DNA of 64,000 bases, from NCBI GenBank assembly GCA_021325375.1, contig JAJPHG010000041.1, positions 1 to 64,000 of the forward strand, given 5' to 3'. The DNA is from Alphaproteobacteria bacterium (GTDB lineage: Bacteria > Pseudomonadota > Alphaproteobacteria > Micropepsales > Micropepsaceae). Shown here piece by piece: positions 32,729 to 47,229 of this stretch (within the stretch, counting starts at the first letter, position 1; every line of letters starts with the position of its first letter). A program made the translations under genes and the position numbers. Below the pieces are notes generated by a model. That model was not told the origin of the DNA and did no database searches. It was given only the letters and a program-made list of their open reading frames with translations.

Positions 32729-33540
32729 CGCGGGCCCTCCACCAGCGTCGTGCCGCGCGCAGCGCGCCATTTGCGCCTGAGTCCCGCCCAGGTGAGATGG
32801 CGGTTCAGGCGGAACAGGTTCGTCTCCTCGCGCCCGTCCATGCGCACGCCCTTGAGCGCGTGGCGCGACGTATCGGTGATGCCGTGCGCGTCCATCAGCT
32901 CGCGATACTCGTCATATTGCGATGCGCCTTGCATGTTTCCGGCGCTGTATTGCGCGCCCTTGCCGATGGCGCGCGTGTGCAGCACCGAACAGGCATCGAC
33001 GATGACGAGCCTGTCGCCGTCACGGCGCGCGATGTCGCGCCAGACCATATCGAGGCCCCAGCTCGATTTGTTGAGCTGCCAGGTCGGCAGCACTTTCTTC
33101 AGGAAATCGACGCGGAAGATCGGCGCCATCAGCTCGACGAAATCGACCTCCCGGTATTCGAGCCAGGCGCGGCGCAGGGTGATGTCGTAGGAATAGAAAG
33201 AGAGCGGATCGAGCGCCGGCTGGCCGAGCGCCGCGTCCGTCTCCTCCAGGATGCGCAGCGCGGTGTTCCAGCACGCGGCATCCGCCGCCAGATCGTCGTC
33301 GGGAAAGCCGATGCGGCTGTAGCGGTCGAGGAAGCCGCCATGGCTCTCGAGGCACGCCTTCAGCCCCAGCCATTTCGGTCCCGCCTCGCGCGACAGCGTC
33401 ACGCCTTCGGGCAGCGCGCCGAACGGCTCTTCCCGCGCGCCGAAATAGCTGACGTGCAGATCGAAATCGCGCGCACCCTGCAGCCACCCCGGATGCAGCG
33501 ACTTGTCGCCCGCGCGGACGATGAGGAGATATTTCCTCAT
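32725..33540 (-). CDS. DUF707-like glycosyltransferase-type protein
   Basis: 271 residues, ATG 33540 overlapping the glf stop as ATGA. KYLLIVRAGDKSLHPGWL opens a Rossmann-like domain and YSRIGFPDDDLAAD resembles a DxD donor-binding motif; WGLDMVWRDIA, VIVDACSVLHTRAIG and ASQYDEYRELMDAHGI are typical of DUF707. The family is uncharacterised but lies in glycan loci. Its position between a Galf-forming mutase and a sulfotransferase supports a role as glycosyltransferase; that is inference. Confidence 0.75.
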   Translation of the reverse strand: MRKYLLIVRAGDKSLHPGWLQGARDFDLHVSYFGAREEPFGALPEGVTLSREAGPKWLGLKACLESHGGFLDRYSRIGFPDDDLAADAACWNTALRILEETDAALGQPALDPLSFYSYDITLRRAWLEYREVDFVELMAPIFRVDFLKKVLPTWQLNKSSWGLDMVWRDIARRDGDRLVIVDACSVLHTRAIGKGAQYSAGNMQGASQYDEYRELMDAHGITDTSRHALKGVRMDGREETNLFRLNRHLTWAGLRRKWRAARGTTLVEGPR

Positions 33541-34670
33541 GCGTCCCCCCGCACGAACGGCGCGATCTGCTTCTCGAACAGCGCGAGCGCGCGGGCGCAG
33601 GCCTGGTCCATGTTGTAATAGGCGTAGTCGCCGAGCCGTCCGGCGAACCAGACCTTCCCCTCGAGCGCGCGCGCGGCGTCGAGATAGGGCTGGAGCCTCT
33701 CGGCGTTGCCCGGCGTGGGGATCGGATAGTAGGGCTCGTTCTTTCCGGGCTCGTGGCTCTGCGGATATTCCTCGACGAGCACGGTGCCTGGGGTCTCCTG
33801 TCCCGTGAGATGCTTGAATTCGGTGATCCGCGTATAGGCGTGGTCGTTGGGATAGTTCACCGTGCCGACCGGCTGCGCCTGGCGCTCGTCGCGTGCATAA
33901 AAATGAAAGCGCAGGCTGCGATAGGGCAGCGCGCCGAACCGGTAGCCGAAATACTCGTCGATCGGTCCGGTGAAGATCACGTTCGCGCCCCGCTCGGGCA
34001 GCGAGCGGAAGTCGGTGTCCGTCGCCACCTCGATATTGGGATGCTTCAGGATGCGCGCGAACATCGCGCTGTAGCCGTCCGCGGGCATCGACTGGAAGCT
34101 GTCCTGGAAATAGCGGTCGTCGCGGCTGATGCGCACCGGCACGCGCGCGCTGACGCTCGGGTCGAGCTCCTCGGGGCGCAGCGACCATTGCTTGAGCGTG
34201 TAGTTCTCGAACACCTTGGCATAGATGAAATCGGCGAGCGCCTTGAGCGCGCCGCCGCTCTCGCGCATCTTCAGGATGGGCACGTTCCTGCCCTCGCCAT
34301 ACGTCTCGATCAGGAGCGCCGTGAGCGAAGCGGCCTCACGCGCCGGAAACAGCGCTTGAAGCGAATCCAGGTTGAAGGGGATCGGCACCAGCTTGCCGTC
34401 GATGTGGCCGAGCACGCGGTGCTCGTAAGGCCGCCAGGCGGTGAAGGCCGACAGGTAGCGCCACACCTTCTCGGCGTTGGTGTGGAAGATGTGCGGGCCG
34501 TATTTGTGGACGAGGATGCCGTGCTCGCCCTTGTGATCGAAGGCGTTGCCCGCGATGTGGCTTCGGCGGTCGACGACCAGCACCTTCTTGTCGAGCTGGG
34601 AGGCGATCCGCTCGGCCAGTACCGCGCCGGTGAAGCCCGCGCCGGCGATGATCCAGTCGTGCCTGCTCAA
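33537..34670 (-). CDS. glf: UDP-galactopyranose mutase
   Basis: About 377 residues. The FAD-binding N-terminus DWIIAGAGFTGAVLAERIA and the conserved HKYGPHIFHT (substrate/FAD loop) are clear; FTGPIDEYFGYRFG and YPQSHEPGKNEPYYPI are mutase signatures. It converts UDP-galactopyranose to UDP-galactofuranose for surface polymers. No ATG fits: the TTG at 34670 gives a normal N-terminus, and another TTG at 34730 is possible. First gene of the three-gene surface-glycan operon; unlike most such clusters no Galf transferase of a familiar family is adjacent. Confidence 0.88.
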   Translation of the reverse strand: MSRHDWIIAGAGFTGAVLAERIASQLDKKVLVVDRRSHIAGNAFDHKGEHGILVHKYGPHIFHTNAEKVWRYLSAFTAWRPYEHRVLGHIDGKLVPIPFNLDSLQALFPAREAASLTALLIETYGEGRNVPILKMRESGGALKALADFIYAKVFENYTLKQWSLRPEELDPSVSARVPVRISRDDRYFQDSFQSMPADGYSAMFARILKHPNIEVATDTDFRSLPERGANVIFTGPIDEYFGYRFGALPYRSLRFHFYARDERQAQPVGTVNYPNDHAYTRITEFKHLTGQETPGTVLVEEYPQSHEPGKNEPYYPIPTPGNAERLQPYLDAARALEGKVWFAGRLGDYAYYNMDQACARALALFEKQIAPFVRGDA

Positions 34671-34826
34671 GGAAAGCGAACCGGAGCCCTGTTGCAGCCG
34701 CAAAGAGCCCCGGTTCGGGAAAATAAGCAACCCTCCCTTGCCGCCTTCGCTTTCGCTACGGCGTGCCAGGAGAATCTTCCGGCCACGGCGTAGCCTTTAG
34801 GCGGAGCCGGGAGGGAGGGTCGACTC

Positions 34827-35804
34827 CTAATTCAGCACATAGCGCATCGTCACGCCGACGACATCCTCGTCGCGGTTGCGGGTGAAGGTGTTGTCCGCGG
34901 GCGCGGTCGGGAAGGTGTTGCTCGTGTTTTGGTAGAAATTGTGCTCGTAGCCGATCGAGCCCACCACCGTGTTCGGGATGAAGTGGTAGTTGAGCGCCAC
35001 GTTCAGGTCGGTGTAGTCGCCGCCATGGGCGATATGCAGCAGGCCGTTCGAATCGTCGAACACCTGGGTGCTGTTGGAGAAGGTATGACCGACGCCGGCA
35101 TTCATCGACAGCACCGGGCTGAAGCGCCATTGCGAGGTGAGGCCCAGGCGGTAGTTCCACTGCGAATCGGTGAGCGTGTTGTCGCCGGTGTTCTGGTTCA
35201 GCACCGTGCGCGTGTCGAGCCAGCTGGCGTCGAACAGACCCGCGATCGTGAAGTCGCGCGTCTCATGGCCGAGCGTGAAGCCGAAATCGGCTTCCTGCCC
35301 GCCGCGTCCGACCGTGCCGCTCTCGTCGGCATTCGCGCTTCTGGCCGGGAACGCATCAGGCGAATAGTCGGCACGCAGGTCGAAGCTGAACGGGCCGCCC
35401 GCCGCCTGGTCGACGGCGCGCCAGGTGATGCCGAAATCGGGATCGGTCCAACCGGAGCTGGAGCGCGTCACCAGTCCGGTGGGATCGAGATGGCGGCTCG
35501 TCGCGCGCGTGTCGTAGCCCCAATCCAGGCGCAGCACGAAATCGTCCGTGATGCCGTACTGGAATTGCTGGCCGATGTCGTTCGACGTCACGTGCGAGGT
35601 GCTGGTCTGCGCCCCCGCAGCGTTGAACGTATTGAGCGAGGTCGAGCCCCAATCATAGCTCGTCGCGCCGTAGACCTGCCCCTGCATCGGCAGATAGAGC
35701 GGGTCGGAAATGATACGCGCCGCGTCGGGCGTCGCATCCTGCGCGAAGGCGGAAGTCGACAGGCAGATGACGCTCGCGGCGCCGAGATATTTCGTCCAAC
35801 GCAT
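34827..35804 (-). CDS. Outer-membrane beta-barrel protein
   Basis: 325 residues from ATG 35804, which has GGAGGAG about 9 nt upstream. The signal peptide ends SAFAQ. The body alternates amphipathic strands and Asp/Asn/Gly turns, ending in a strand VVGVTMRYVLN. The pattern resembles MipA/OmpW- or transporter-like barrels of unknown specificity. No plug or ligand domain is seen. It lies beside the glf operon but is separated by about 160 nt and a fragment of a dispersed repeat. Confidence 0.65.
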   Translation of the reverse strand: MRWTKYLGAASVICLSTSAFAQDATPDAARIISDPLYLPMQGQVYGATSYDWGSTSLNTFNAAGAQTSTSHVTSNDIGQQFQYGITDDFVLRLDWGYDTRATSRHLDPTGLVTRSSSGWTDPDFGITWRAVDQAAGGPFSFDLRADYSPDAFPARSANADESGTVGRGGQEADFGFTLGHETRDFTIAGLFDASWLDTRTVLNQNTGDNTLTDSQWNYRLGLTSQWRFSPVLSMNAGVGHTFSNSTQVFDDSNGLLHIAHGGDYTDLNVALNYHFIPNTVVGSIGYEHNFYQNTSNTFPTAPADNTFTRNRDEDVVGVTMRYVLN

Positions 35805-36184
35805 GGGCACGCACTCCTCCTTGATATGAACTCAATCGTGCGCGCGTCACCCCGTGCCCTGACGATGCGCCACCAGGTCATGGGATAAACGCGGCCCGCG
35901 CCCAATCCGTTGCGGCGTCAGCCTTATCTTTAAGTAATGCGCGGGCCACGAAGATGAATGCAGGATGAACGGTTAGTCTGTGTACGGATTATACCTCGCG
36001 CTCGCGAACGCCGTTCGCTCAATCCGTCATGGCTCTTGCTGTCATGGCTCTTGGGGGCTCGGGTCGGCATGTGCTGGTATGACGCGCCCGCGCGCAAAGC
36101 CGCTTGACGGAGCGCGCGCGGCGCAAACCGCCGCCTCGATTTCCGGGATTTCCGCGGGTTCCCGAAAACGCCACAAATCCGTTC
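35805..36184. other. Intergenic region without a convincing gene
   Basis: About 430 nt separate the outer-membrane protein gene from the GloVer array. It contains a short tandem duplication TCATGGCTCTTG (near 36030 and 36045) and AT-richer patches but no credible coding frame. It likely holds the divergent promoters for the barrel gene and the array. Confidence 0.45.
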
Positions 36185-36213: not shown

Positions 36214-36242
36214 CTTGGGCAGCAACGAAGAAGGTCATGGAA

Positions 36243-37568
36243 ATGTTCAGAAAAATCCCCCTGGCGCTGGCGCTGACCTTTGGCCTTGCCACGGCCGCGC
36301 ACGCGACGGCCACCCTCAAGCTGCTCAAATCGTTCTGCGCCGATACGGGCTGCCCCGACGGCCAGACCCCTTCGGGCACGCTGATCACCGACAGCTCGCA
36401 CAACATCTACGGCACCACCCAGGCGGGCGGCACGCATGGCGGCGGCACGCTGTTCCAGTTGCTCTTCAATCCGGACACGTCGAGCTACCGCTACCGCAAG
36501 CTCTACAATTTCTGCGACCAGTCGCAATGCGTCGACGGCGCGACTCCCACCAACACCAGGCTCGTGATCGATACCAACGGCACGCTCTACGGGACGACGG
36601 CAGCAGGCGGCCCCGCCAACAGCGGCGTCGTCTTCAAGCTGGTGCCGAACGACACCAAGACGCACTACCACTACAGCGTGATCTATCAGTTCTGCGTGGA
36701 GTTCAGCGGCTGCGAGGACGGCTCCACGCCGACGGGCGGGCTGACTTTCGCCGGCCAGGACCAGGGCCAGAGCTATGACGGCGTGGCGGCGCTCTACGGC
36801 TCGACGCTGCATGGCGGCCGCGACTCCGACGCGGGCCTGATCTTCCAGCTCGTTCCGCCGCCGGCGGGTCAAGAGTTCGGCACGCAACGCCAGCTCTACA
36901 AATTCTGCCGCCTCCACGCCTGCAGCGATGGCGCAAATCCCGGCGGCAACATCACCATCGACAAGAACGGCAATCTCTGGGGCACGACGTCGACGGGCGG
37001 CCGCGATCCCCAAAACGCCGGCGTGATCTTCGAACTGATCCCCAGCGTGAGCGGGGCATGGGGAGAAACCCCGATCTACTCCTTCTGCGGCGAGACGGAT
37101 TGCGCGGACGGCGCCACGCCCACGACGGGGCTTGCCGTCGATTCCAACGGCAATTTCTACGGCACGACGTCGACGGGCGGCCTCACCTACCGCAAATGCG
37201 CGGACACGGGCTGCGGCGTCATCTTCAAGCTGACGTCGAGCGGCGCCACGGAGACGACGCTCTATTCCTTCTGCAAGCTCGCCAAATGCGCCGACGGCGG
37301 CATGCCGGAAGGCCTGGTGCTCGACCCCAACAGCAACATCTACGGCGGCACCAACATCGGCGGCCTCAAGCACAACGGCAACTTCTTCAAGCTGAACGGC
37401 ACGACGATGACCGACATGTACGATATCAAATGCGTCAACAACGTCTGCTCCAACGGCATCAACCCGACCGGCTCGCTGATGCTGAACGCCAATGACGACC
37501 TGTTCGGCGCCTTCATGAACGCCGGCCGCAACGGCCAGGGCGGCGAGCTGTTCGAGCTGATCGAGTAG
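36243..37568 (+). CDS. Secreted GloVer-repeat seven-blade protein, copy 1
   Basis: 441 residues from ATG 36243 (GAAGAAGG about 9 nt upstream; an ATG at 36237 is in frame). The signal peptide ends AAHA. Seven repeats follow, each of the form Y-x-F-C-x4-5-C-x-D-G then a GNLYGTT-x2-GG turn and an F-x-L strand, matching GloVer (TIGR03803-type) repeats with an added Cys pair. Repeat 3 has the extra loop QGQSYDGVAALYG and repeat 5 an additional Cys pair (CADTGC). The chain ends straight after repeat 7 with no anchor. Seven repeats suggest a closed beta-propeller. Ligand unknown. First of six tandem paralogues. Confidence 0.75.
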   Translation: MFRKIPLALALTFGLATAAHATATLKLLKSFCADTGCPDGQTPSGTLITDSSHNIYGTTQAGGTHGGGTLFQLLFNPDTSSYRYRKLYNFCDQSQCVDGATPTNTRLVIDTNGTLYGTTAAGGPANSGVVFKLVPNDTKTHYHYSVIYQFCVEFSGCEDGSTPTGGLTFAGQDQGQSYDGVAALYGSTLHGGRDSDAGLIFQLVPPPAGQEFGTQRQLYKFCRLHACSDGANPGGNITIDKNGNLWGTTSTGGRDPQNAGVIFELIPSVSGAWGETPIYSFCGETDCADGATPTTGLAVDSNGNFYGTTSTGGLTYRKCADTGCGVIFKLTSSGATETTLYSFCKLAKCADGGMPEGLVLDPNSNIYGGTNIGGLKHNGNFFKLNGTTMTDMYDIKCVNNVCSNGINPTGSLMLNANDDLFGAFMNAGRNGQGGELFELIE

Positions 37569-37632
37569 ACGGCGGCGGAAACTTTCCCGCGTCCGTGATA
37601 TCAAGGGCGCGTCATCCAAAGGTGGCGCGCCC

Positions 37633-38919
37633 ATGCCGCTCAAATCCGCGACGCTCGCGTTCCTCATCGCCGCCCCGCTGCTCCTGATGGGGGCGCCGGG
37701 CGCCTGCGCCTATACGCAGAAGGTCCTCTACGCGTTCTGCGGGGTGGCGAACTGCGCCAATGGCGAGGAGCCGCTGGGGCCGCTGCTGCGCGATCCGTCC
37801 GGCAACATCTTCGGCACCGTCGAGGACGGCGGCGGGACCCAAGGGGGCGGCGGCGTCTTCGAGCTGACGCCGGGCAGCGGCGGCGGCTGGACCGAGCAGA
37901 TGATCTTCGATTTCTGCACCGGCGACACCTGTCCTTATGGCAGCGCGCCCACCACCGGCGTCATCATGGATACGTCCGGCAACCTCTACGGCACGACGAG
38001 CTTTCTGGGCATCGACGACGCCGGCGCCGCGTTCGAGCTGATCCCCAACAAGAGCAAGACCAAGTGGAAAGCGAAGCTTCTCTACATGTTCTGCTCGAAG
38101 ACCGCGTGCGACGACGGCTCGATCGCCAACGGGCTGACCTATCAGGGCCAGGCTTCCGGCGCGCTCTATGACGGCGTCTCGCCGCTCTACGGCACGACCA
38201 TCGAGGGCGGCACGAACGATGGCGGCGTCGTCTTCGCGCTCATTCCGCCCGCGCCGGGAAAGAAGAAATGGAAAGAGACGGTCATCCACGATTTCTGCTC
38301 GCCCAATTCGACCGACCAATGCACGAGCGACGGCGCGACGCCCGAAGCCGCGATGATCATGGATGCGAGCGGCAATCTCTACGGCACGACGAAAGCGGCA
38401 GGCGCCGGCGTGTTTGCCGCCGGCACGATCTTCGAGCTCAGCCCGAAGGGAAGGAAGTGGAAGGAGAAGACCCTCTACAATTTCTGCTCGCAGCGGGGCT
38501 GCACCGACGGCGCCGGTCCCAACGCGCCCCTGCTCATGGACGCCGCGGGCGACTTGCTGGGCACGGCCGGCGTCGTGTTCAAGTTCGATCCTGCGACGTC
38601 GCAATACACCGTGCTGCATACCTTCTGCGCGGGCGGCAACTGCTCCGACGGCGACGGATCGAACTGGGGCCTGACGATGGATCCGGAAGGCGACCTCTTC
38701 GGCACCTCGTTCGGCGGCGGCAACACACAGCAGGACGGTACCGCTTGGGCGCTCAACCCGACGTTCCAGGTCCTCTACACCTTTTGCCAGGTGGGCGCGT
38801 GCAAGGACGGCATGCACCCGGACTCGCCGCTGCTTCCGGACACATCGGGCAACCTCTTCGGTACCACGTCCGAAGGCGGTCCCAACGGCGCGGGCGAGGT
38901 CTACGAGCTTTCGCCGTAG
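37633..38919 (+). CDS. Secreted GloVer-repeat seven-blade protein, copy 2
   Basis: 428 residues, signal peptide ending GACA. Seven Cys-paired repeats: FCGVANC, FCTGDTC, FCSKTAC, FCSPNSTDQC, FCSQRGC, FCAGGNC and FCQVGAC. Repeat 3 carries QASGALYDGVSPLYGTT. Repeat 5 is shortened, losing its inter-strand turn (GDLLGTAGVVFKF). It ends with VYELSP. The 64-nt gap to copy 1 has no terminator-like hairpin, so co-transcription is likely. Confidence 0.75.
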   Translation: MPLKSATLAFLIAAPLLLMGAPGACAYTQKVLYAFCGVANCANGEEPLGPLLRDPSGNIFGTVEDGGGTQGGGGVFELTPGSGGGWTEQMIFDFCTGDTCPYGSAPTTGVIMDTSGNLYGTTSFLGIDDAGAAFELIPNKSKTKWKAKLLYMFCSKTACDDGSIANGLTYQGQASGALYDGVSPLYGTTIEGGTNDGGVVFALIPPAPGKKKWKETVIHDFCSPNSTDQCTSDGATPEAAMIMDASGNLYGTTKAAGAGVFAAGTIFELSPKGRKWKEKTLYNFCSQRGCTDGAGPNAPLLMDAAGDLLGTAGVVFKFDPATSQYTVLHTFCAGGNCSDGDGSNWGLTMDPEGDLFGTSFGGGNTQQDGTAWALNPTFQVLYTFCQVGACKDGMHPDSPLLPDTSGNLFGTTSEGGPNGAGEVYELSP

Positions 38920-38988
38920 CCTCGGCCCCGTTCATTGCTCAACTCTTGCGCGATTGATAGGATCGCGCGGGGGTGAGGAGTAAGCGCG

Positions 38989-40266
38989 ATGTCCATTCTC
39001 CTGCGCGGCGCCGGTTTGGCGCTGCTGGCCGCCGCCATGCTGCCGAACGGCACGGCTTCCGCGGCGACGCTGACGACGCTTTACAGCTTCTGCAAGACGT
39101 CCGGCTGTCCCGACGGGCGCCAGCCCGACGGACGCCTCGTGCGCGACGCGTCGGGGAACCTGTTCGGCGCGGCGTCGGCGGGCGGCACCAATGACGGCGG
39201 CGCGGTGTTCGAGCTTACGCCCGACGGCACCGAGACCGTGCTCGCGAACCTCTGCACGAAGACCAATTGCCCCGACGGCGATTCGCCGGAGAACGGCGTC
39301 ATCATGGACACCGCGGGAAACCTCTATGGCACCGCGTTCCATGGGGGCCGCAACCAAGCCGGCGTCGTCTTCGAGCTGGTCGCCAACGCCGGCCGCACCG
39401 CGTGGACGTACAAGGTGATCTACCGCTTCTGCGTTGTCGACTGCGCGGACGGAGAGGGTCCGAACGGGCTGGCCTATCAGGGCCAGGCGAGCGGCGCGCT
39501 CTATGACGGCACCTCGCCGCTCTACGGCACGACGATCTTCGGCGGCGCCAACCACCTCGGCGTCGCGTTCTCGCTGACCCCGCACCGCAAAAAGTGGAAG
39601 TACAAGGACATCCACGATTTCTGCACGCCCGATTGCACGACGGACGGCGAGATGCCCGAGGCGGAGATGACCGTGGACGCGGCCGGCAATCTCTTCGGCA
39701 CGACCGCGAGCGGCGGCGACGCCAACAATGGCGGCACGGTCTTCGAGCTCAAGCCCAAGCGCAAGGGCGCCTTCGCCGAGACGATCCTCTACCGGTTCTG
39801 CGAGGAGACGGCCTGCCACGACGGATCGAACCCGTTCGCAGGCGTGACGCTGGACGCCACGGGCAACCTGTTCGGGGTCACGTCCAGCGGCGGCCAGAGC
39901 GGCGAGAACAGCACGGCCTTCAGGCTGATCCCTAAGGGCGCGCATTCGAAATATTCGCTGCTCTACACGTTTTGCAGCGTCAGCGGCTGCGCGGACGGCA
40001 GCCAGTCGGAATCGCCGCTGACGCTCGACGCTTCGGGAACCCTGTACGGCACCACCGTCGGGGGCGGAAACGACAACGGCGGCGGCGTGCTGTTCTCGCT
40101 CGCGCCGCAATACCACACGCTCTACACGTTCTGCAGCCAGGCCTCCTGCGCCGACGGCGCCCAGCCGGTCTCGCCGCTCCTGATCGACGGGTCCGGCGAC
40201 CTGACCGGCACGACGACGGGCGGCGGCGCGCACGGCCAAGGCACGGTGTACGTGCTGACGCCGTGA
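38989..40266 (+). CDS. Secreted GloVer-repeat seven-blade protein, copy 3
   Basis: 425 residues, start preceded by GAGGAG. Signal peptide ends ASAA. Seven repeats with Cys pairs, two of them compact (FCVVDCADG in repeat 3, FCTPDC in repeat 4) and LC instead of FC in repeat 2. The repeat-3 loop QASGALYDGTSPLYGTT is nearly identical to copy 2, making copies 2 and 3 the most alike by eye. Ends VYVLTP, 16 nt before copy 4. Confidence 0.75.
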   Translation: MSILLRGAGLALLAAAMLPNGTASAATLTTLYSFCKTSGCPDGRQPDGRLVRDASGNLFGAASAGGTNDGGAVFELTPDGTETVLANLCTKTNCPDGDSPENGVIMDTAGNLYGTAFHGGRNQAGVVFELVANAGRTAWTYKVIYRFCVVDCADGEGPNGLAYQGQASGALYDGTSPLYGTTIFGGANHLGVAFSLTPHRKKWKYKDIHDFCTPDCTTDGEMPEAEMTVDAAGNLFGTTASGGDANNGGTVFELKPKRKGAFAETILYRFCEETACHDGSNPFAGVTLDATGNLFGVTSSGGQSGENSTAFRLIPKGAHSKYSLLYTFCSVSGCADGSQSESPLTLDASGTLYGTTVGGGNDNGGGVLFSLAPQYHTLYTFCSQASCADGAQPVSPLLIDGSGDLTGTTTGGGAHGQGTVYVLTP

Positions 40267-40282
40267 GGAAAAGGATGTCGCG

Positions 40283-41572
40283 ATGAAGATGGGCAAAACC
40301 TTGGTCCTGGCGCTCGTCGGCGTTTGCGCGCTGGCCGTGCCCGCGAGCGCGATCCGCAACCTGCATTCGTTCTGTCAGATTCAGGCAAGCTGTCCCGACG
40401 GCCTATACCCGGCGGGCGGGCTCGCCATGGATGCCAACGGCAATCTTTTCGGCGTCACGGAAAGCGGCGGCATTCCGAACGATTTCGGCGTCGCCTACGA
40501 ACTCGTGCGCAACCCGGACCGCGCCAAATGGCGCTTCCGGCTGCTCTACAATTTCTGCACGCAGCTGGACTGCGCCGACGGTATAGGGGCGTCAGGACCG
40601 CTCGCGATCGATACGTCAGGCAGCCTCTACGGCGTCACGGGGGGCGGCGGAACCACGAATGGCGGCGTAGCCTATCGCCTCTCGCCCAATCCCGGGCACA
40701 AGAAGTGGACCTATACCGTGCTCTGGACGTTCTGCTCGCGCCAACCCAAGTGCAGGGACGGAAGCGGACCATCGGGCGGATTCACTTATGCGGGCGCTTC
40801 CAGCGGCGCGCTCTATGACGGCCATTCCGCGCTCTACGGCTTCACCGCCTCCGGCGGAAACTTCTCGCGCGGCGTCGCCTATTCCCTCACGCTGCAGACT
40901 GGCGGAAGCTGGCGCCAACAGACCCTCTACAATTTCTGCAAGGACGCCGGAACATGCGCGGGCGGCGTTGAGCCCTACGGCCAGCCCGTCCTTGACGCCA
41001 CGGGCAATGTCTACGGGTCCACGCGCAACGGCGGCGCGCAGAACGACGGCGTTTCGTTCAAGCTCGCGCCCGTCTCGGGCTCGAAGTTCTGGAGCGAAAC
41101 CGTGCTGCACGATTTCTGCTCGGCGGCGAACTGCTCCGACGGGGCAGGACCTTCGAGCCTGGCGATCGATACGGCGGGCAACCTCTTCGGCACCACCCAG
41201 CTCGGCGGCGACACTTGCGGCGGTAGCGGCTGCGGCACGCTTTTCGAGATCGCATCGGACGGGACCTATTCGGTCCTCTACAATTTCTGCTCGAACTCAG
41301 GCTGCACCGACGGTGCCGATCCCACGGGCGTCGTGCTGAGCGCATCCGGCGAGATATTCGGCACCACGGACGACGGAGGAAACAACAACAACGGCACGGT
41401 GTACAGGTTCAACGGCGCGCTGCACACGCTCTACACATTCTGCAAGACGGACTGCGAAGCCGGCCGGGAACCGTTCTCGCCGCCCCTGCTGGACGGTGCC
41501 GGCAATCTGTTCGGCACGACGCCGGTCGGCGGAGCATACAACAGCGGCGCGGTTTACAAATTGAAGCAGTAG
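40283..41572 (+). CDS. Secreted GloVer-repeat seven-blade protein, copy 4
   Basis: 429 residues, GAGGAAAAGG ahead of the ATG. Short signal peptide ending PASA. Seven Cys-paired repeats; repeat 3 loop ASSGALYDGHSALYG; repeat 5 with additional Cys in DTCGGSGCGTLF. Repeats 4 and 7 replace CxDG by CAGG and CEAG. Only 16 nt follow copy 3, supporting translational linkage. Confidence 0.75.
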   Translation: MKMGKTLVLALVGVCALAVPASAIRNLHSFCQIQASCPDGLYPAGGLAMDANGNLFGVTESGGIPNDFGVAYELVRNPDRAKWRFRLLYNFCTQLDCADGIGASGPLAIDTSGSLYGVTGGGGTTNGGVAYRLSPNPGHKKWTYTVLWTFCSRQPKCRDGSGPSGGFTYAGASSGALYDGHSALYGFTASGGNFSRGVAYSLTLQTGGSWRQQTLYNFCKDAGTCAGGVEPYGQPVLDATGNVYGSTRNGGAQNDGVSFKLAPVSGSKFWSETVLHDFCSAANCSDGAGPSSLAIDTAGNLFGTTQLGGDTCGGSGCGTLFEIASDGTYSVLYNFCSNSGCTDGADPTGVVLSASGEIFGTTDDGGNNNNGTVYRFNGALHTLYTFCKTDCEAGREPFSPPLLDGAGNLFGTTPVGGAYNSGAVYKLKQ

Positions 41573-41606
41573 CCGCGCGCACGAACGCCTCGTGGGGGAG
41601 TGAGTC

Positions 41607-42878
41607 ATGAACAGTGTTGGAAACAATCTGCGCGCCGCGCTCGCGCTGGCCTTGCTTGCCGGGCTCGGCGCCGCGCCGGCAGCGGCCAAAGTAAAGGCAC
41701 GGATCATCGAGAACCTCTGCGAGACCGCCTCTTGCACCAGGGACTTCTCGAACGTCGGGCTCACGATGAGCCCGTCCGGCGATATCTACGGCGTCAACGA
41801 TCAGGACGGCGCCAATCACGAGGGCTCGGTTTTCCGCCTGCACCAGCGCGCCGGGCACAACAAATGGACTTACCAGACGATCCACGGCTTCTGCGCGCAG
41901 GCCAATTGCACGGACGGCTCCTTCCCGCGGGGCGGACTGATCGCGGATACGGCAGGCAACCTCTACGGCACGACGCAGACCGGCGGTCCGACCGGCCATG
42001 GCGAGGTCTTCCGTCTGTCGCCCGGCGGCGCGTTCGATGTGCTCTACGGATTTTGCCCGGCCAACGATTCCTGTCCCGACGGCGCGGGCCCAGGCGCCGC
42101 CCTGACCTATCCGAACGCGGCGGCCGGCGCCTTCTATGACGGCGTCTCGCCGCTCACCGGAGTGGCGTACACGGGCGGCAGCCACAACAGCGGAACGGCA
42201 TACCAGCTGACGCCGGGTTCCGGCGGCTGGTCGTTCGCGGTCCTCATCAACTACAATTCGGCCTGTGCCCCCGACGCCATCGTGATGACGACCGGCACGA
42301 ATGTGTACGAGACCCAGCGCCTGGGCTGCGAGAGCGTCGGCAACGGCGCCGGCGCGATCATGCTGCTTCAGCAGGCCACGCCGAGCTGGAAGGAGACCGT
42401 GCTCTACGCGTTCTGCGCGCAAATCAACTGCACCGACGGCGAAGATCCGCGCGGGCAGGTGGTGATCGACGGCAGCGGCGCCCTATACGGGGCGGACGAC
42501 GAGGGCGGCAACGCCGGCGGCACGGCCTTCAAACTGACCCCCGATGGGCTGGCCTGGGACTTCCAGCTGCTGCACACTTTCTGCTCCTTGCCCGGCTGCC
42601 ATGACGGCGTGTGGCCCATGGGCGGACTGATCGCGGACGCGAACGGCAACCTTTTCGGAACCACGAACGGCTATGGAAACCGCAGCCGGAGCGGAACGAT
42701 CTTCGAGATCGGCGAAGGCGGCGGCTTTCAAACGCTTCATGAGTTCTGCAGCGGGACGTGCAAGGAAGGCAGCCGGCCCATCGCCGGCGTCCTCATGGAC
42801 GGCGCGGGCAATCTGTTCGGCAAGACCACGGAGGGCGGCGGCCAAGGCAGCGGCACGGTCTTCGCGCTGACGCCTTGA
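41607..42878 (+). CDS. Secreted GloVer-repeat seven-blade protein, copy 5 (divergent)
   Basis: 423 residues; GGGGGAG ahead of the ATG; signal peptide ends PAAA. The most divergent copy: repeat 1 reads LCETASCTRD without the DG, and repeat 4 is degenerate (NYNSACAPDA, single Cys, no GTT turn). Repeat 3 still has AAAGAFYDGVSPLTG. Seven positions are still countable, so the closed propeller would be kept. Confidence 0.73.
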   Translation: MNSVGNNLRAALALALLAGLGAAPAAAKVKARIIENLCETASCTRDFSNVGLTMSPSGDIYGVNDQDGANHEGSVFRLHQRAGHNKWTYQTIHGFCAQANCTDGSFPRGGLIADTAGNLYGTTQTGGPTGHGEVFRLSPGGAFDVLYGFCPANDSCPDGAGPGAALTYPNAAAGAFYDGVSPLTGVAYTGGSHNSGTAYQLTPGSGGWSFAVLINYNSACAPDAIVMTTGTNVYETQRLGCESVGNGAGAIMLLQQATPSWKETVLYAFCAQINCTDGEDPRGQVVIDGSGALYGADDEGGNAGGTAFKLTPDGLAWDFQLLHTFCSLPGCHDGVWPMGGLIADANGNLFGTTNGYGNRSRSGTIFEIGEGGGFQTLHEFCSGTCKEGSRPIAGVLMDGAGNLFGKTTEGGGQGSGTVFALTP

Positions 42879-42954
42879 CGCGTATTCGCACGGATCGCGC
42901 GGGGGGCCTTCGCGTGCTAGCGTTGTGAGGCGACGATTTCCACGGGAGACAAGG

Positions 42955-44304
42955 ATGCGCTGCTTTGGAACCGAACCGACGCGCGGAAAAGCCGCCCTCG
43001 CTGCATGGAAGACGTTCGCGGCATCGCTCTGCGCCGCGACGCTCGCGGCCCTCAGCTCCCTCGCGCAGCCGGCGCAGGCGGCGGGGATAAGCACCCTCTA
43101 TTCCTTCTGCGAGCTCAATGGGTGCCAGGACGGCGCCGCCCCAGGAGGCGGCCTCGTCGCGGACGCGCAAGGCAATCTCTTCGGCACCACGCAAAGCGGC
43201 GGCAACATCAATTCCGCCGGCGTGATCTACGAGGTCGTACGTCATCCCAAGCGCGGCACGGCGCGCTACCGCTCGCTCTACGAGTTCTGCGCGCTGCCGG
43301 CTTGCGCCGACGGGCGCTATCCGCTTGGGCGCCTTGTCATCGATGGCGCGGGGCGCCTCTACGGCACCACGTGGAGCGGCGGCGACGTCAATTCCGGCGT
43401 TGCGTTCATGCTGTCGCCGCGGTCCGCCGGGCACAGCAAATGGTCGTACGCCGTTCTTCAAAGCTTCTGCTCGGGCCAGCCGACCTGCGTCGCGGGCGCG
43501 GTGCCGCTGAGCGGCTTCACCTATGCGGGCGCGTATGCGGGCGCGCCCTATGACGGCACCTCGCCGCTCTACGGCGTCGCGAGCCGCGGCGGAAAATACG
43601 GCAACGGCACCGTCTATTCGCTGCGCCACCACCAACTGGACTGGAAGTTCAGGGCGCTCTACGCCTTCTGCCCCGACCTCGGCACCTGCGCGGGCGGAAG
43701 CGCGCCGCAGCTCGCGGTTCTGGACGGCGCCGACAATCTCTACGGCATCGCGAACGGCGGCAACCAGAACGCCGGCCTGGTGTTCAAGCTCACGCCTGGC
43801 TCGGGCAACGCGTACAGCGAGAGCGTTCTGCATGATTTCTGCTCGTCGCCGAATTGCGCCGACGGCAAGTTCCCCTCTGACCTCATCGTCGACGCCGGGG
43901 GCAACCTTTTCGGCACGGCGCGCCAAGGCGGCGTGACGAGCCATCTCTACTGCGGCGGCTGCGGCACGCTCTTCAAGATCGCGTCCGACGATACGTTTTC
44001 CGTGCTCCATGCGTTTTGCGCGCGCACGCCGCGCTGCACGGACGGCTTCGCGCCCTCCGGCATCACGTTGACGCCTTCCGGCGACATCTACGGCGTGACA
44101 TTCTACGGAGGCAAAACGAACGCTGGGACGCTCTTCCGCATGGCCGCCACGATGCACACGCTGTTCAGCTTCTGCCCCAACGGCTGCAGCGCCGGCGCCA
44201 ATCCAGTGGCGGCGCCCTTGCAGGACGGCGCTGGCAAGCTCTTCGGCGTCGCCGCCGGCGGCGGCGAAAGCTCCCACGGCACGGTCTACGAATTCACGCG
44301 ATAG
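42955..44304 (+). CDS. Secreted GloVer-repeat seven-blade protein, copy 6
   Basis: 449 residues from ATG 42955, preferred over a GTG at 42925 because CGGGAG precedes it. Longer N-terminal signal region (about 45 residues, ending AQAA). Seven Cys-paired repeats; repeat 3 loop AYAGAPYDGTSPLYG; repeat 5 with an additional pair in YCGGCGTLF. Ends VYEFTR. A strong hairpin 12 nt after the stop marks the end of the array. Confidence 0.75.
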   Translation: MRCFGTEPTRGKAALAAWKTFAASLCAATLAALSSLAQPAQAAGISTLYSFCELNGCQDGAAPGGGLVADAQGNLFGTTQSGGNINSAGVIYEVVRHPKRGTARYRSLYEFCALPACADGRYPLGRLVIDGAGRLYGTTWSGGDVNSGVAFMLSPRSAGHSKWSYAVLQSFCSGQPTCVAGAVPLSGFTYAGAYAGAPYDGTSPLYGVASRGGKYGNGTVYSLRHHQLDWKFRALYAFCPDLGTCAGGSAPQLAVLDGADNLYGIANGGNQNAGLVFKLTPGSGNAYSESVLHDFCSSPNCADGKFPSDLIVDAGGNLFGTARQGGVTSHLYCGGCGTLFKIASDDTFSVLHAFCARTPRCTDGFAPSGITLTPSGDIYGVTFYGGKTNAGTLFRMAATMHTLFSFCPNGCSAGANPVAAPLQDGAGKLFGVAAGGGESSHGTVYEFTR

Positions 44305-44316
44305 AGGAAACGAACA

Positions 44317-44342
44317 GCCGCGCGGGATCGCTCCCGCGCGGC
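44317..44342. terminator. Strong hairpin between convergent genes
   Basis: Arms GCCGCGCGGGA (44317-44327) and TCCCGCGCGGC (44332-44342) with a TCGC loop, 8 nt from the end of the convergent glycine-rich gene. It probably terminates both transcripts. The same core is reused in the rpsA terminator 1.1 kb away. Confidence 0.65.
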
Positions 44343-44350
44343 CGTTGGCT

Positions 44351-45055
44351 TCAGACCGCCCAGCGCACGATCACCACGCCGGTGCCGCCCGCGCCGCCGG
44401 GGGAGCCCACATACTGACAGCCCATGCCGCCGCCGCCGAGCACGCCGTTATAGCTGTTGACCGTGCCGGGGTGGCCGAGCGGATTGCCTCCGCCCGGGAT
44501 CGTGTAGGTCCAGTTCCCGATCCCGCTGAACGGAAAGACCGTGCCCTCTTCCGCGCCGTAGTCGAGCTTCGCGGCCTGGGTCAGCCCGCTTGCCCCCGCC
44601 GCCGCCGTGAAAGCGCCCGCGGTGCCCGCGACCATCGTGCCGGCGGTCTGGCCGGGAGAGCCGCCGCCGCCGGTCGACTGCGCGATGGTGGTGGTCCCGA
44701 AGACCAGCTTGCTCGTTCCACCGCCGCCGCCCGCGCCGCCGCCGAAGGCACCGTTCGCGCCGCCGGCGCCGATCGTGACGGCGATGGTCTGGCTGGCCGT
44801 GAAGCCGCTGTAGGAAGCGAAGCCCGCGCCGCCGGATCCGCCGCTCGCGGCTTGGAAGATGCCGGTGGAGCAGCCGCCGCCGCCGCCACCACCGCCGATG
44901 ACGGTGAACTCGAACTCGGTGCCGGCCGCGGCCGTCGCCGGGATCGTGAAGGTGCCGCTGCTGGTGAAGACCATTGTGTGCATGCTGGCGGCCCATGCCG
45001 CATCGCTGAACGTGAAGGCCGCGAGTGCCGTTGCCAGAAGAAGAGTCGATTTCAT
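44351..45055 (-). CDS. Glycine-rich secreted protein
   Basis: 234 residues with a signal peptide ending AAWA (about 22). The mature chain starts FTSSGTFTIPATA and contains many Gly-Gly runs (VIGGGGGGGG, GGGAGGGGGTSK) and ends GGAGGTGVVIVRWAV. This is the glycine-rich domain found in phage tail tips and large secreted bacterial proteins. Two Cys (GGCSTG, GMGCQY). Likely an extracellular adhesive or structural protein. It is convergent with the GloVer array and faces it across the shared hairpin. Confidence 0.7.
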   Translation of the reverse strand: MKSTLLLATALAAFTFSDAAWAASMHTMVFTSSGTFTIPATAAAGTEFEFTVIGGGGGGGGCSTGIFQAASGGSGGAGFASYSGFTASQTIAVTIGAGGANGAFGGGAGGGGGTSKLVFGTTTIAQSTGGGGSPGQTAGTMVAGTAGAFTAAAGASGLTQAAKLDYGAEEGTVFPFSGIGNWTYTIPGGGNPLGHPGTVNSYNGVLGGGGMGCQYVGSPGGAGGTGVVIVRWAV

Positions 45056-45468: not shown

Positions 45469-47229
45469 CTATTCCTCGTCTTCCTCGGCGTCGTCTTCCT
45501 TCTTGCCCTTCTTGGTCGCCTTCTTGAGGGCTGCGCCCAGGATGTCGCCGAGCGAGGCGCCCGAGTCGGACGAGCCGTATTGCGCCACGGCTTCCTTCTC
45601 CTCGGCCACTTCGCGCGCCTTGATCGAGAGCGAGATCTTGCGGCTCGCCTTGTCGACCGAGGTGACGAGCGCATCGATCTTGTCGCCCTTGCCGAAGCGC
45701 TCGGGACGCTGATCGCCGCGGTCGCGCGCCAGGTCGGCGCGGCGGATGAACGCCTTGGCGCCGCCTTCCAGCACGACCTCGACGCCGCCGTCATTGACCT
45801 CGGTCACGGTGACGGTGACGACGCTGCCCTTGCGCAGCGGGCCGGCCTTCTCGATCGGATCGCCGGTGAGCTGCTTGATGCCGAGGCTGACGCGCTCTTT
45901 CTCCGCGTCGACGTCGAGCACCTGCGCCTTGACGGTCTGGCCCTTCTCGTAGGCCTTGACCGCCTCTTCGCCCTGCTTGTCCCAGGAGAGGTCGGAGAGA
46001 TGGACCATGCCGTCGATGTCCTGATCGAGCCCGATGAACAGGCCGAACTCGGTGATCGATTTGATCTCGCCCTCGATCGTGCTGCCCGGCGGATGCGCCT
46101 TGGCGAAGGCTTCCCACGGATTGTCCTGGGTCTGCTTGAGGCCCAAGGAGATACGGCGCTTGTTGGAATCGACCTCCAGCACCTGCACGTCGACCTCGGT
46201 GCCCGGCGTGACGATCTTGGACGGCGCCACGTTCTTCTTGACCCACGACATCTCGCTGACGTGCACGAGGCCCTCGACGCCCGGCTCCAGCTCCACGAAG
46301 GCGCCGTAGTCGGTGACGTTGGTGACCTTGCCCTTGAACTTCGCGCCCACGGGGTACTTGGCGCCGACGCCTTCCCAGGGATCGGTCTGCAGCTGCTTCA
46401 TGCCGAGCGAGATGCGCTGCGTCTCGTGGTTGATCTTGATGATCTGCACGGTGACGGTCTGGCCGACGCTCAAGACCTCGGTCGGATGCGACACGCGCCT
46501 CCAGGCGATGTCGGTGACGTGGAGCAGGCCGTCGACGCCGCCCAGGTCCACGAACGCGCCGTAGTCGGTGATGTTCTTGACCACGCCTTCGACGATCTGC
46601 TTCTCGGCCAAGGAGGCCACGAGCGAGGTGCGCTCCTCGGCGCGGCGCTCTTCGAGCACAGCGCGGCGCGAAACGACGATGTTGCCGCGGCGGCGATCCA
46701 TCTTGAGGATCTGGAACATCTGCGGCTGGTTCATCAGCGGGCCCACGTCGCGCATCGGGCGGACGTCGACCTGCGAACCGGGAAGGAACGCGACCGCGCC
46801 GTCGAGGTCGACGGTGAAGCCGCCCTTGACGCGGCCGAAGATCACGCCTTCGACGCGGGTCTGCTCGTTGAACGCGCGCTCGAGCTTGATCCAGCTCTCC
46901 TCGCGGCGCGCCTTGTCGCGCGACAGCACGGCATCGCCCATCGCGTTCTCGACGCGCTCGAGATAGACCTCGACCTGGTCGCCGATCGCGACTTTCGCGG
47001 GCTGGCCGGGCATCGCGAATTCCTTCAAGGATACGCGGCCTTCGGTCTTCAAGCCGACATCGACGACGGCGAAATCGTTCTCGATCGCGACCACCGTTCC
47101 GGTGATGACGGAGCCTTCCGCGGGCGAGCGCCCGATGAAGCTCTCTTCCAGCATCGCCTCGAAATCGGCGCGGCTGGGATGAAACATGGCGGCGGTATCG
47201 GATTTTATGGTGGCAGACTGGCGGGCCAT
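45469..47229 (-). CDS. rpsA: 30S ribosomal protein S1
   Basis: 586 residues with six S1 OB-fold repeats; typical repeats show [19 protein letters not shown] (written here as one segment of 19) and [19 protein letters not shown]. It binds mRNA on the 30S subunit and aids initiation on structured leaders. The C-terminal tail is unusual in being both Lys- and Asp/Glu-rich ([18 protein letters not shown]). It normally follows cmk, as here, with 141 nt between. Confidence 0.96.

Follow-up and report, generated by a model that had tools for sequence, protein, structure and literature searches.

We analyzed a 64,000-nucleotide stretch of DNA (the window; positions 1 to 64,000 of contig JAJPHG010000041.1, assembly GCA_021325375.1) from an alphaproteobacterium of the family Micropepsaceae, in which six adjacent genes encode proteins of the tandem-repeat family TIGR03803 (GloVer). 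An earlier sequence-only reading had described them as secreted proteins of seven cysteine-paired repeats each, and had proposed a search with the TIGR03803 profile together with a search for further copies. In the NCBIfam profile search all six proteins matched TIGR03803 with 163-228 bits (E 9e-49 to 4e-69), far above the curated cut-off of 44 bits, and because these scores are so high the array is not a chance resemblance. The six genes are as follows.

36237..37568, forward strand: predicted GloVer propeller gene 1, 443 aa, 7 repeats, cysteine pair in 7/7, TIGR03803 163 bits; orthologues at the same place in the related genomes G013 (57% at the amino acid level) and G074 (46%)
37633..38919, forward strand: predicted GloVer propeller gene 2, 428 aa, 7 repeats, cysteine pair in 7/7, TIGR03803 176 bits; orthologue at the same place in G013 (65% at the amino acid level)
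38989..40266, forward strand: predicted GloVer propeller gene 3, 425 aa, 7 repeats, cysteine pair in 7/7, TIGR03803 228 bits; modeled
40283..41572, forward strand: predicted GloVer propeller gene 4, 429 aa, 7 repeats, TIGR03803 189 bits
41607..42878, forward strand: predicted GloVer propeller gene 5, 423 aa, 6 recognizable repeats and a degenerate fourth, TIGR03803 181 bits; modeled
42925..44304, forward strand: predicted GloVer propeller gene 6, 459 aa counted from a GTG, TIGR03803 188 bits

The genes are co-directional, with intergenic gaps of 16-69 nt, and all six products carry signal-peptide-like hydrophobic N-termini with AxA-type ends, as judged by eye. Their description as six adjacent genes for secreted proteins is thus borne out by the forward-strand frames, the profile matches, and the N-termini. 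Position 36243, previously taken as the start of gene 1, is its second methionine in a frame that opens at 36237, and the 449 codons reported for gene 6 fit the ATG at 42955, which is a likelier start than the GTG and gives 449 aa.

Repeats of about 50 residues with a GNLYGTT..GG..GTVFxL core were found in all six proteins. Seven TIGR03803 stretches were detected in each protein except the gene 5 product, which has six, and a repeat HMM built from the genome's own copies returned 7, 7, 7, 7, 6, and 7 repeats for genes 1-6. The count of exactly seven repeats per protein stands for genes 1-4 and 6 and fails for gene 5, whose fourth repeat is degenerate: both the motif and the usual cysteine pair are gone, although the structural model nonetheless gives it four predicted strands. 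Among the GloVer proteins counted in this genome and in its relatives, all intact ones also have seven repeats; the exceptions are the degenerate repeat of gene 5 and copies truncated at a contig end or disrupted by a frame change. Seven repeats were likewise counted in one protein from Novosphingobium and in one from a Methylocystis plasmid, and seven are clear in a Paraburkholderia protein; an Adhaeribacter GloVer protein with 15 matches was read as two propellers followed by a long C-terminal part. The number seven is a trait of the GloVer family and not special to this array, the distinctive feature of which is a cysteine-pair subfamily with an insertion in blade 3. A Pfam match of gene 1 to Diedel (PF13164; 24.5 bits against a gathering cut-off of 21.3) was dismissed as a fortuitous effect of cysteine richness, with no individual stretch reaching significance, and is probably a false positive of the cut-off.

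Predicted fold of the GloVer proteins

The mature products of genes 3 and 5 were modeled with AlphaFold2 from an input of 22 sequences, with a pLDDT of 90.2 and a pTM of 0.91 for gene 3, and 86.0 and 0.89, respectively, for gene 5. In both cases the prediction is a closed ring of seven four-stranded blades. Structural alignments (VIA-align) covered the whole models (residues 1-400 and 1-396), and the top matches (Z 28-30) were known seven-bladed propellers, namely integrin alpha and CylK, both at Z 30, and Vgb at Z 29.7 with 289 residues aligned at 2.4-2.5 A; DFPase and glycoside-hydrolase propellers were also among the matches. Such whole-chain alignments, at Z ~30 for both proteins, argue for the closed seven-bladed ring that had been proposed from the repeats. 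A profile search of the PDB revealed no solved structures related by sequence, and its matches to p53 (E 0.05) were dismissed as chance.

In the predicted arrangement, one repeat would form one blade in the order strand D, loop, strand A, turn, strand B, loop, and strand C. An outer strand (TLYSF) opens the protein and GTVFELTP forms its end, and the gene 3 model and sequence suggest that the N-terminal strand completes blade 7 and thereby closes the ring. Completion of the last blade in this manner would explain why nothing follows repeat seven; only 0-2 residues were found beyond the last repeat, in agreement with the reported lack of a C-terminal anchor.

Two of the leading structural matches differ from the array proteins in sequence. 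Vgb (virginiamycin B lyase) is the best match among small proteins and has a similar strand order, but it is only 13-15% identical, and the array subfamily is without conserved catalytic-type residues. The propeller of the integrin alpha subunit, a surface binding domain, also has seven blades and aligns at Z ~30 over 350 residues, but at ~4-12% identity, and the FG-GAP repeat profile had no match in the six proteins in a Pfam search up to an E of 1. The top viral structural match to gene 3 in BFVD was A0A481Z910 of Pithovirus LCPAC304 (TM 0.74-0.77, 22% identity, 414 columns), which may be a giant-virus member of the GloVer family. A viral origin of the array was set aside, as no relatives were found in viral contigs.

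Cysteine pairs and the blade-3 insertion

NCBIfam describes TIGR03803 as a "choice-of-anchor tandem repeat GloVer-containing protein." The array proteins share its score above cut-off and its 6-7 repeats, but differ from usual members by a C-x4-C in nearly every blade, by a YDGxSPLYG insertion in blade 3, and by having no anchor. Within the subfamily, both cysteines are present in 319 repeats, a single one in 8, and none in 21, whereas the corresponding counts for GloVer proteins outside the subfamily are 31, 3, and 259. The cysteines are thus gained or lost as pairs within a repeat, which supports disulfides. Their spacing is mostly C-x3-5-C, as against the C-x4-5-C first noted, with a spacing of 7 in repeat 4 of gene 2, and the models place the C-x4-C in the predicted D-A loop. 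From this strict co-occurrence, the C-x4-C of nearly every subfamily blade is most likely a disulfide that pins the D-A loop, and the proposal of one disulfide per blade gains indirect support. DsbB is present in 10/10 genomes tested. The statement that usual GloVer copies are devoid of these cysteines is correct for most of them, but a few pairs occur in some proteins outside the subfamily, including the Methylocystis plasmid protein. One copy in the studied genome (L049 5279-6604, reverse strand) lies outside the cysteine clade and yet has 6/7 cysteine pairs and blades 57% identical to one another, which suggests a recent blade amplification and a second, independent spread of the cysteine pair.

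The blade-3 insertion was located in gene 3 as follows.

39463..39534, forward strand: insertion in blade 3 of the gene 3 product (residues ~159-182, NGLAYQGQASGALYDGTSPLYGTT), the hallmark of the subfamily

The insertion ends in YDGxSPLYG and corresponds to a long A-B loop that breaks the symmetry of the ring. Its motif was found in 46/51 members of the cysteine clade and in 0/44 other proteins, and it is a better marker of the subfamily than the clade itself, the node of which has a weak support of 0.53. Residues G169, Y172, D173, and G174 of the insertion are conserved at 96-100%. A pattern search with YDGxSPLYG gave matches solely in uncultured alphaproteobacteria (metagenome-assembled genomes, MAGs).

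The nearly invariant, asymmetric YDG loop of blade 3 could be an active-site element, and together with the CylK, Vgb, DFPase, and glycoside-hydrolase propellers among the structural matches it is an argument for regarding these proteins as enzymes whose active site would lie at the centre of the propeller, as in CylK, DFPase/SMP-30, or Vgb lyase, in which case the many diverged paralogues would suit a range of substrates, one for each paralogue. A common fold is uninformative on function, however, and the polar residues conserved at >=80% across the 51 subfamily members are confined to the repeat Asp, two Trp, one Tyr of blade 2, and Y163, Y172, D173, S176, and Y179 of blade 3. No position reaches 80% conservation of a His, Glu, Lys, Arg, Asn, or Gln in these 51 members, and a shared catalytic or metal centre is therefore unlikely; sites specific to small subgroups would escape this comparison. 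On balance we consider the enzymatic alternative quite unlikely, and of the two functions first suggested for the array, binders or enzymes, conservation makes binding the better guess and speaks against a shared enzyme.

Copy number and evolution of the family

The search for further copies revealed at least 46 intact GloVer copies in the 4.8-Mb genome, 29 of them in the subfamily, plus 4 broken ones; these counts were tallied by hand over the genome stretches retrieved and represent a lower bound. The array at the locus between glf and rpsA recurs with 2 copies in G013 and 3 copies in G074, compared to 6 in the studied genome. The six genes are diverged, as had been stated, but they are part of a set of about 50 and did not arise by one recent tandem expansion: in the gene tree, genes 2 and 3 are sisters (support 0.98), as are genes 4 and 6 (0.97), and gene 1 groups with orthologues from other genomes. 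Contamination of the MAG is an unlikely source of the copies, since the cluster is bordered by rpsA, cmk, and glf of the bacterium's own genus and two relatives show the same order.

The broken genes lie at L045 4752-5492, L047 10975-12740, L047 13816-15119, and L058 4893-6249. In the L045 copy several middle blades have apparently been lost. Both L047 copies have a frame shift at or near A-runs, and sequencing error, decay, and phase variation are indistinguishable as causes of these frame changes.

In the subfamily, similarity across proteins is higher between blades of equal position than otherwise (0.418 vs 0.385), and whole genes have therefore been duplicated. The plain class has no such positional likeness (0.399 vs 0.394), and its blades are most alike within one protein (0.428), a pattern that suggests repeated blade amplification in these sequences.

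For orthologues of genes 1 and 2, pairwise dN/dS values were 0.34-0.92; rpsA, cmk, and glf gave 0.12-0.30, and a flanking outer-membrane-like gene gave 0.50. The high ratios relative to the three conserved genes, the four broken copies, and the variable copy number at the locus among relatives (2, 3, and 6) are what would be expected if the family were expanding by birth and death under loose constraint, each copy having little function. Against this, the size of the ring, the pairing of the cysteines, and the motif in blade 3 are strictly preserved at ~40% identity, which needs selection, and we regard this explanation as very unlikely.

Candidate export route, function, and flanking genes

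GloVer genes were found in 9/96 genomes of the order, all within the bacterium's own genus (9/69 genomes), and an rpsA tree, which accommodated eight of them, divides these among three separate clades (G011, with only a fragment, was left off). Matches to the subfamily profile occurred in 3/385 genomes of the class and 2/398 of the phylum, the studied genome counted in. The presence of GloVer correlates with the type II secretion system (T2SS): gspD or gspG was detected in 9/9 GloVer genomes and 10/60 others (p 2e-6), where G003 was called via gspG alone and G081 via a contig-cut gspD below cut-off. The autotransporter barrel, used as a control, was not associated (4/9 vs 30/60, p 1). The T2SS exports proteins that have been folded and oxidized beforehand in the periplasm, and its association with GloVer therefore fits disulfide-bearing propellers. 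The studied genome has three gspD-type secretins over cut-off (G000:C42, C37, and C18) and thus up to three T2SS loci.

Based on these results, we propose with moderate confidence that the array encodes disulfide-stabilized, seven-bladed GloVer binding propellers exported by the T2SS. The proteins would cross the inner membrane by Sec, form their disulfides in the periplasm, and, as the co-occurrence across genomes suggests, leave the cell via the T2SS; outside they may bind glycans or other surface or plant/soil polymers, with the many paralogues conferring different specificities. The fold is well supported by prediction, the export route moderately so, and the ligand not at all.

Several results weigh against this proposal. 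The statistic for the T2SS association ignores phylogeny, and the GloVer genomes that could be placed amount to three clades on the rpsA tree. GloVer genes are not regularly beside T2SS genes, and the idea that they form part of T2SS loci was dropped, the single near case being in G013. No recurring partner gene was found in a search beside the GloVer copies. Finally, a hypervariable binding face is not apparent: omega was 0.61 in the D-A and B-C (top) loops, 0.51 in the other (bottom) loops, and 0.40 in the strands, a mild excess in the top loops that is not one-sided.

Scattered loci without partners would suit structural or adhesive surface proteins of the matrix or envelope, for which copy number outweighs individual specificity. 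The ~50 copies, the disulfide-type stabilization, and the lack of active-site conservation are compatible with such a role, and relatives elsewhere end in a hydrophobic tail or in additional C-terminal domains. The six array proteins, however, have no anchor, and paralogues differ at about half of their positions or more, so we view a surface role as possible though doubtful, and export of binding propellers through the T2SS as the preferred interpretation.

HAF repeats (TIGR02913) follow a similar distribution, being present in 8/9 GloVer genomes and 1/60 other members of the genus (p 1e-8). HAF repeat proteins are likewise an exported repeat family, but with a different repeat and profile, and the searches made here revealed no homology between them and GloVer. 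An unlikely, more far-reaching possibility is that ~50 modular, disulfide-pinned binders, the HAF-repeat proteins, and a dedicated T2SS constitute a package gained or lost in separate lineages of one genus; if true, it would be a bacterial recognition repertoire on a single propeller scaffold. The occurrence of ~50 paralogues in one genome and none in most of the genus suggests an important, unexplained ecological role. HAF-repeat exported proteins were also observed near GloVer genes, at L026 3310-4341 (forward strand) and L022 11850-13906 (reverse strand); the L026 copy was scored by profile and the L022 ones are its relatives by BLAST.

GloVer repeats have so far been annotated by name only, a known but unstudied family, and our literature search found no paper mentioning TIGR03803 or its NCBI product name. 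The present analysis supplies GloVer with a predicted fold, a likely export route, HAF as a companion family, and a subfamily whose cysteine pairs can be put to the test.

The features that flank the array are as follows.

33537..34730, reverse strand: left flank glf, UDP-galactopyranose mutase (PF03275, E 3e-69), which also adjoins the cluster in G013 and G074
34827..35810, reverse strand: left flank, outer-membrane-like exported protein (by eye), at the same position in G013 and G074
44313..44346, no strand assigned: putative terminator-like inverted repeat of 15 pairs after gene 6, from a consensus scan and scored on the reverse strand
45469..47229, reverse strand: right flank rpsA, encoding ribosomal protein S1 (recognized by eye on the basis of its repeats); the order is the same in G013 and G074, where identity is 92-94%

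The protein at 34827..35810 had zero matches in Pfam and NCBIfam. Window positions 44351-45055 (reverse strand) encode an exported protein with a match to Gly_rich_2 (PF21722), oriented convergently to the cluster, that is 90% identical in G074 and only 46% identical over part of its length in G013.

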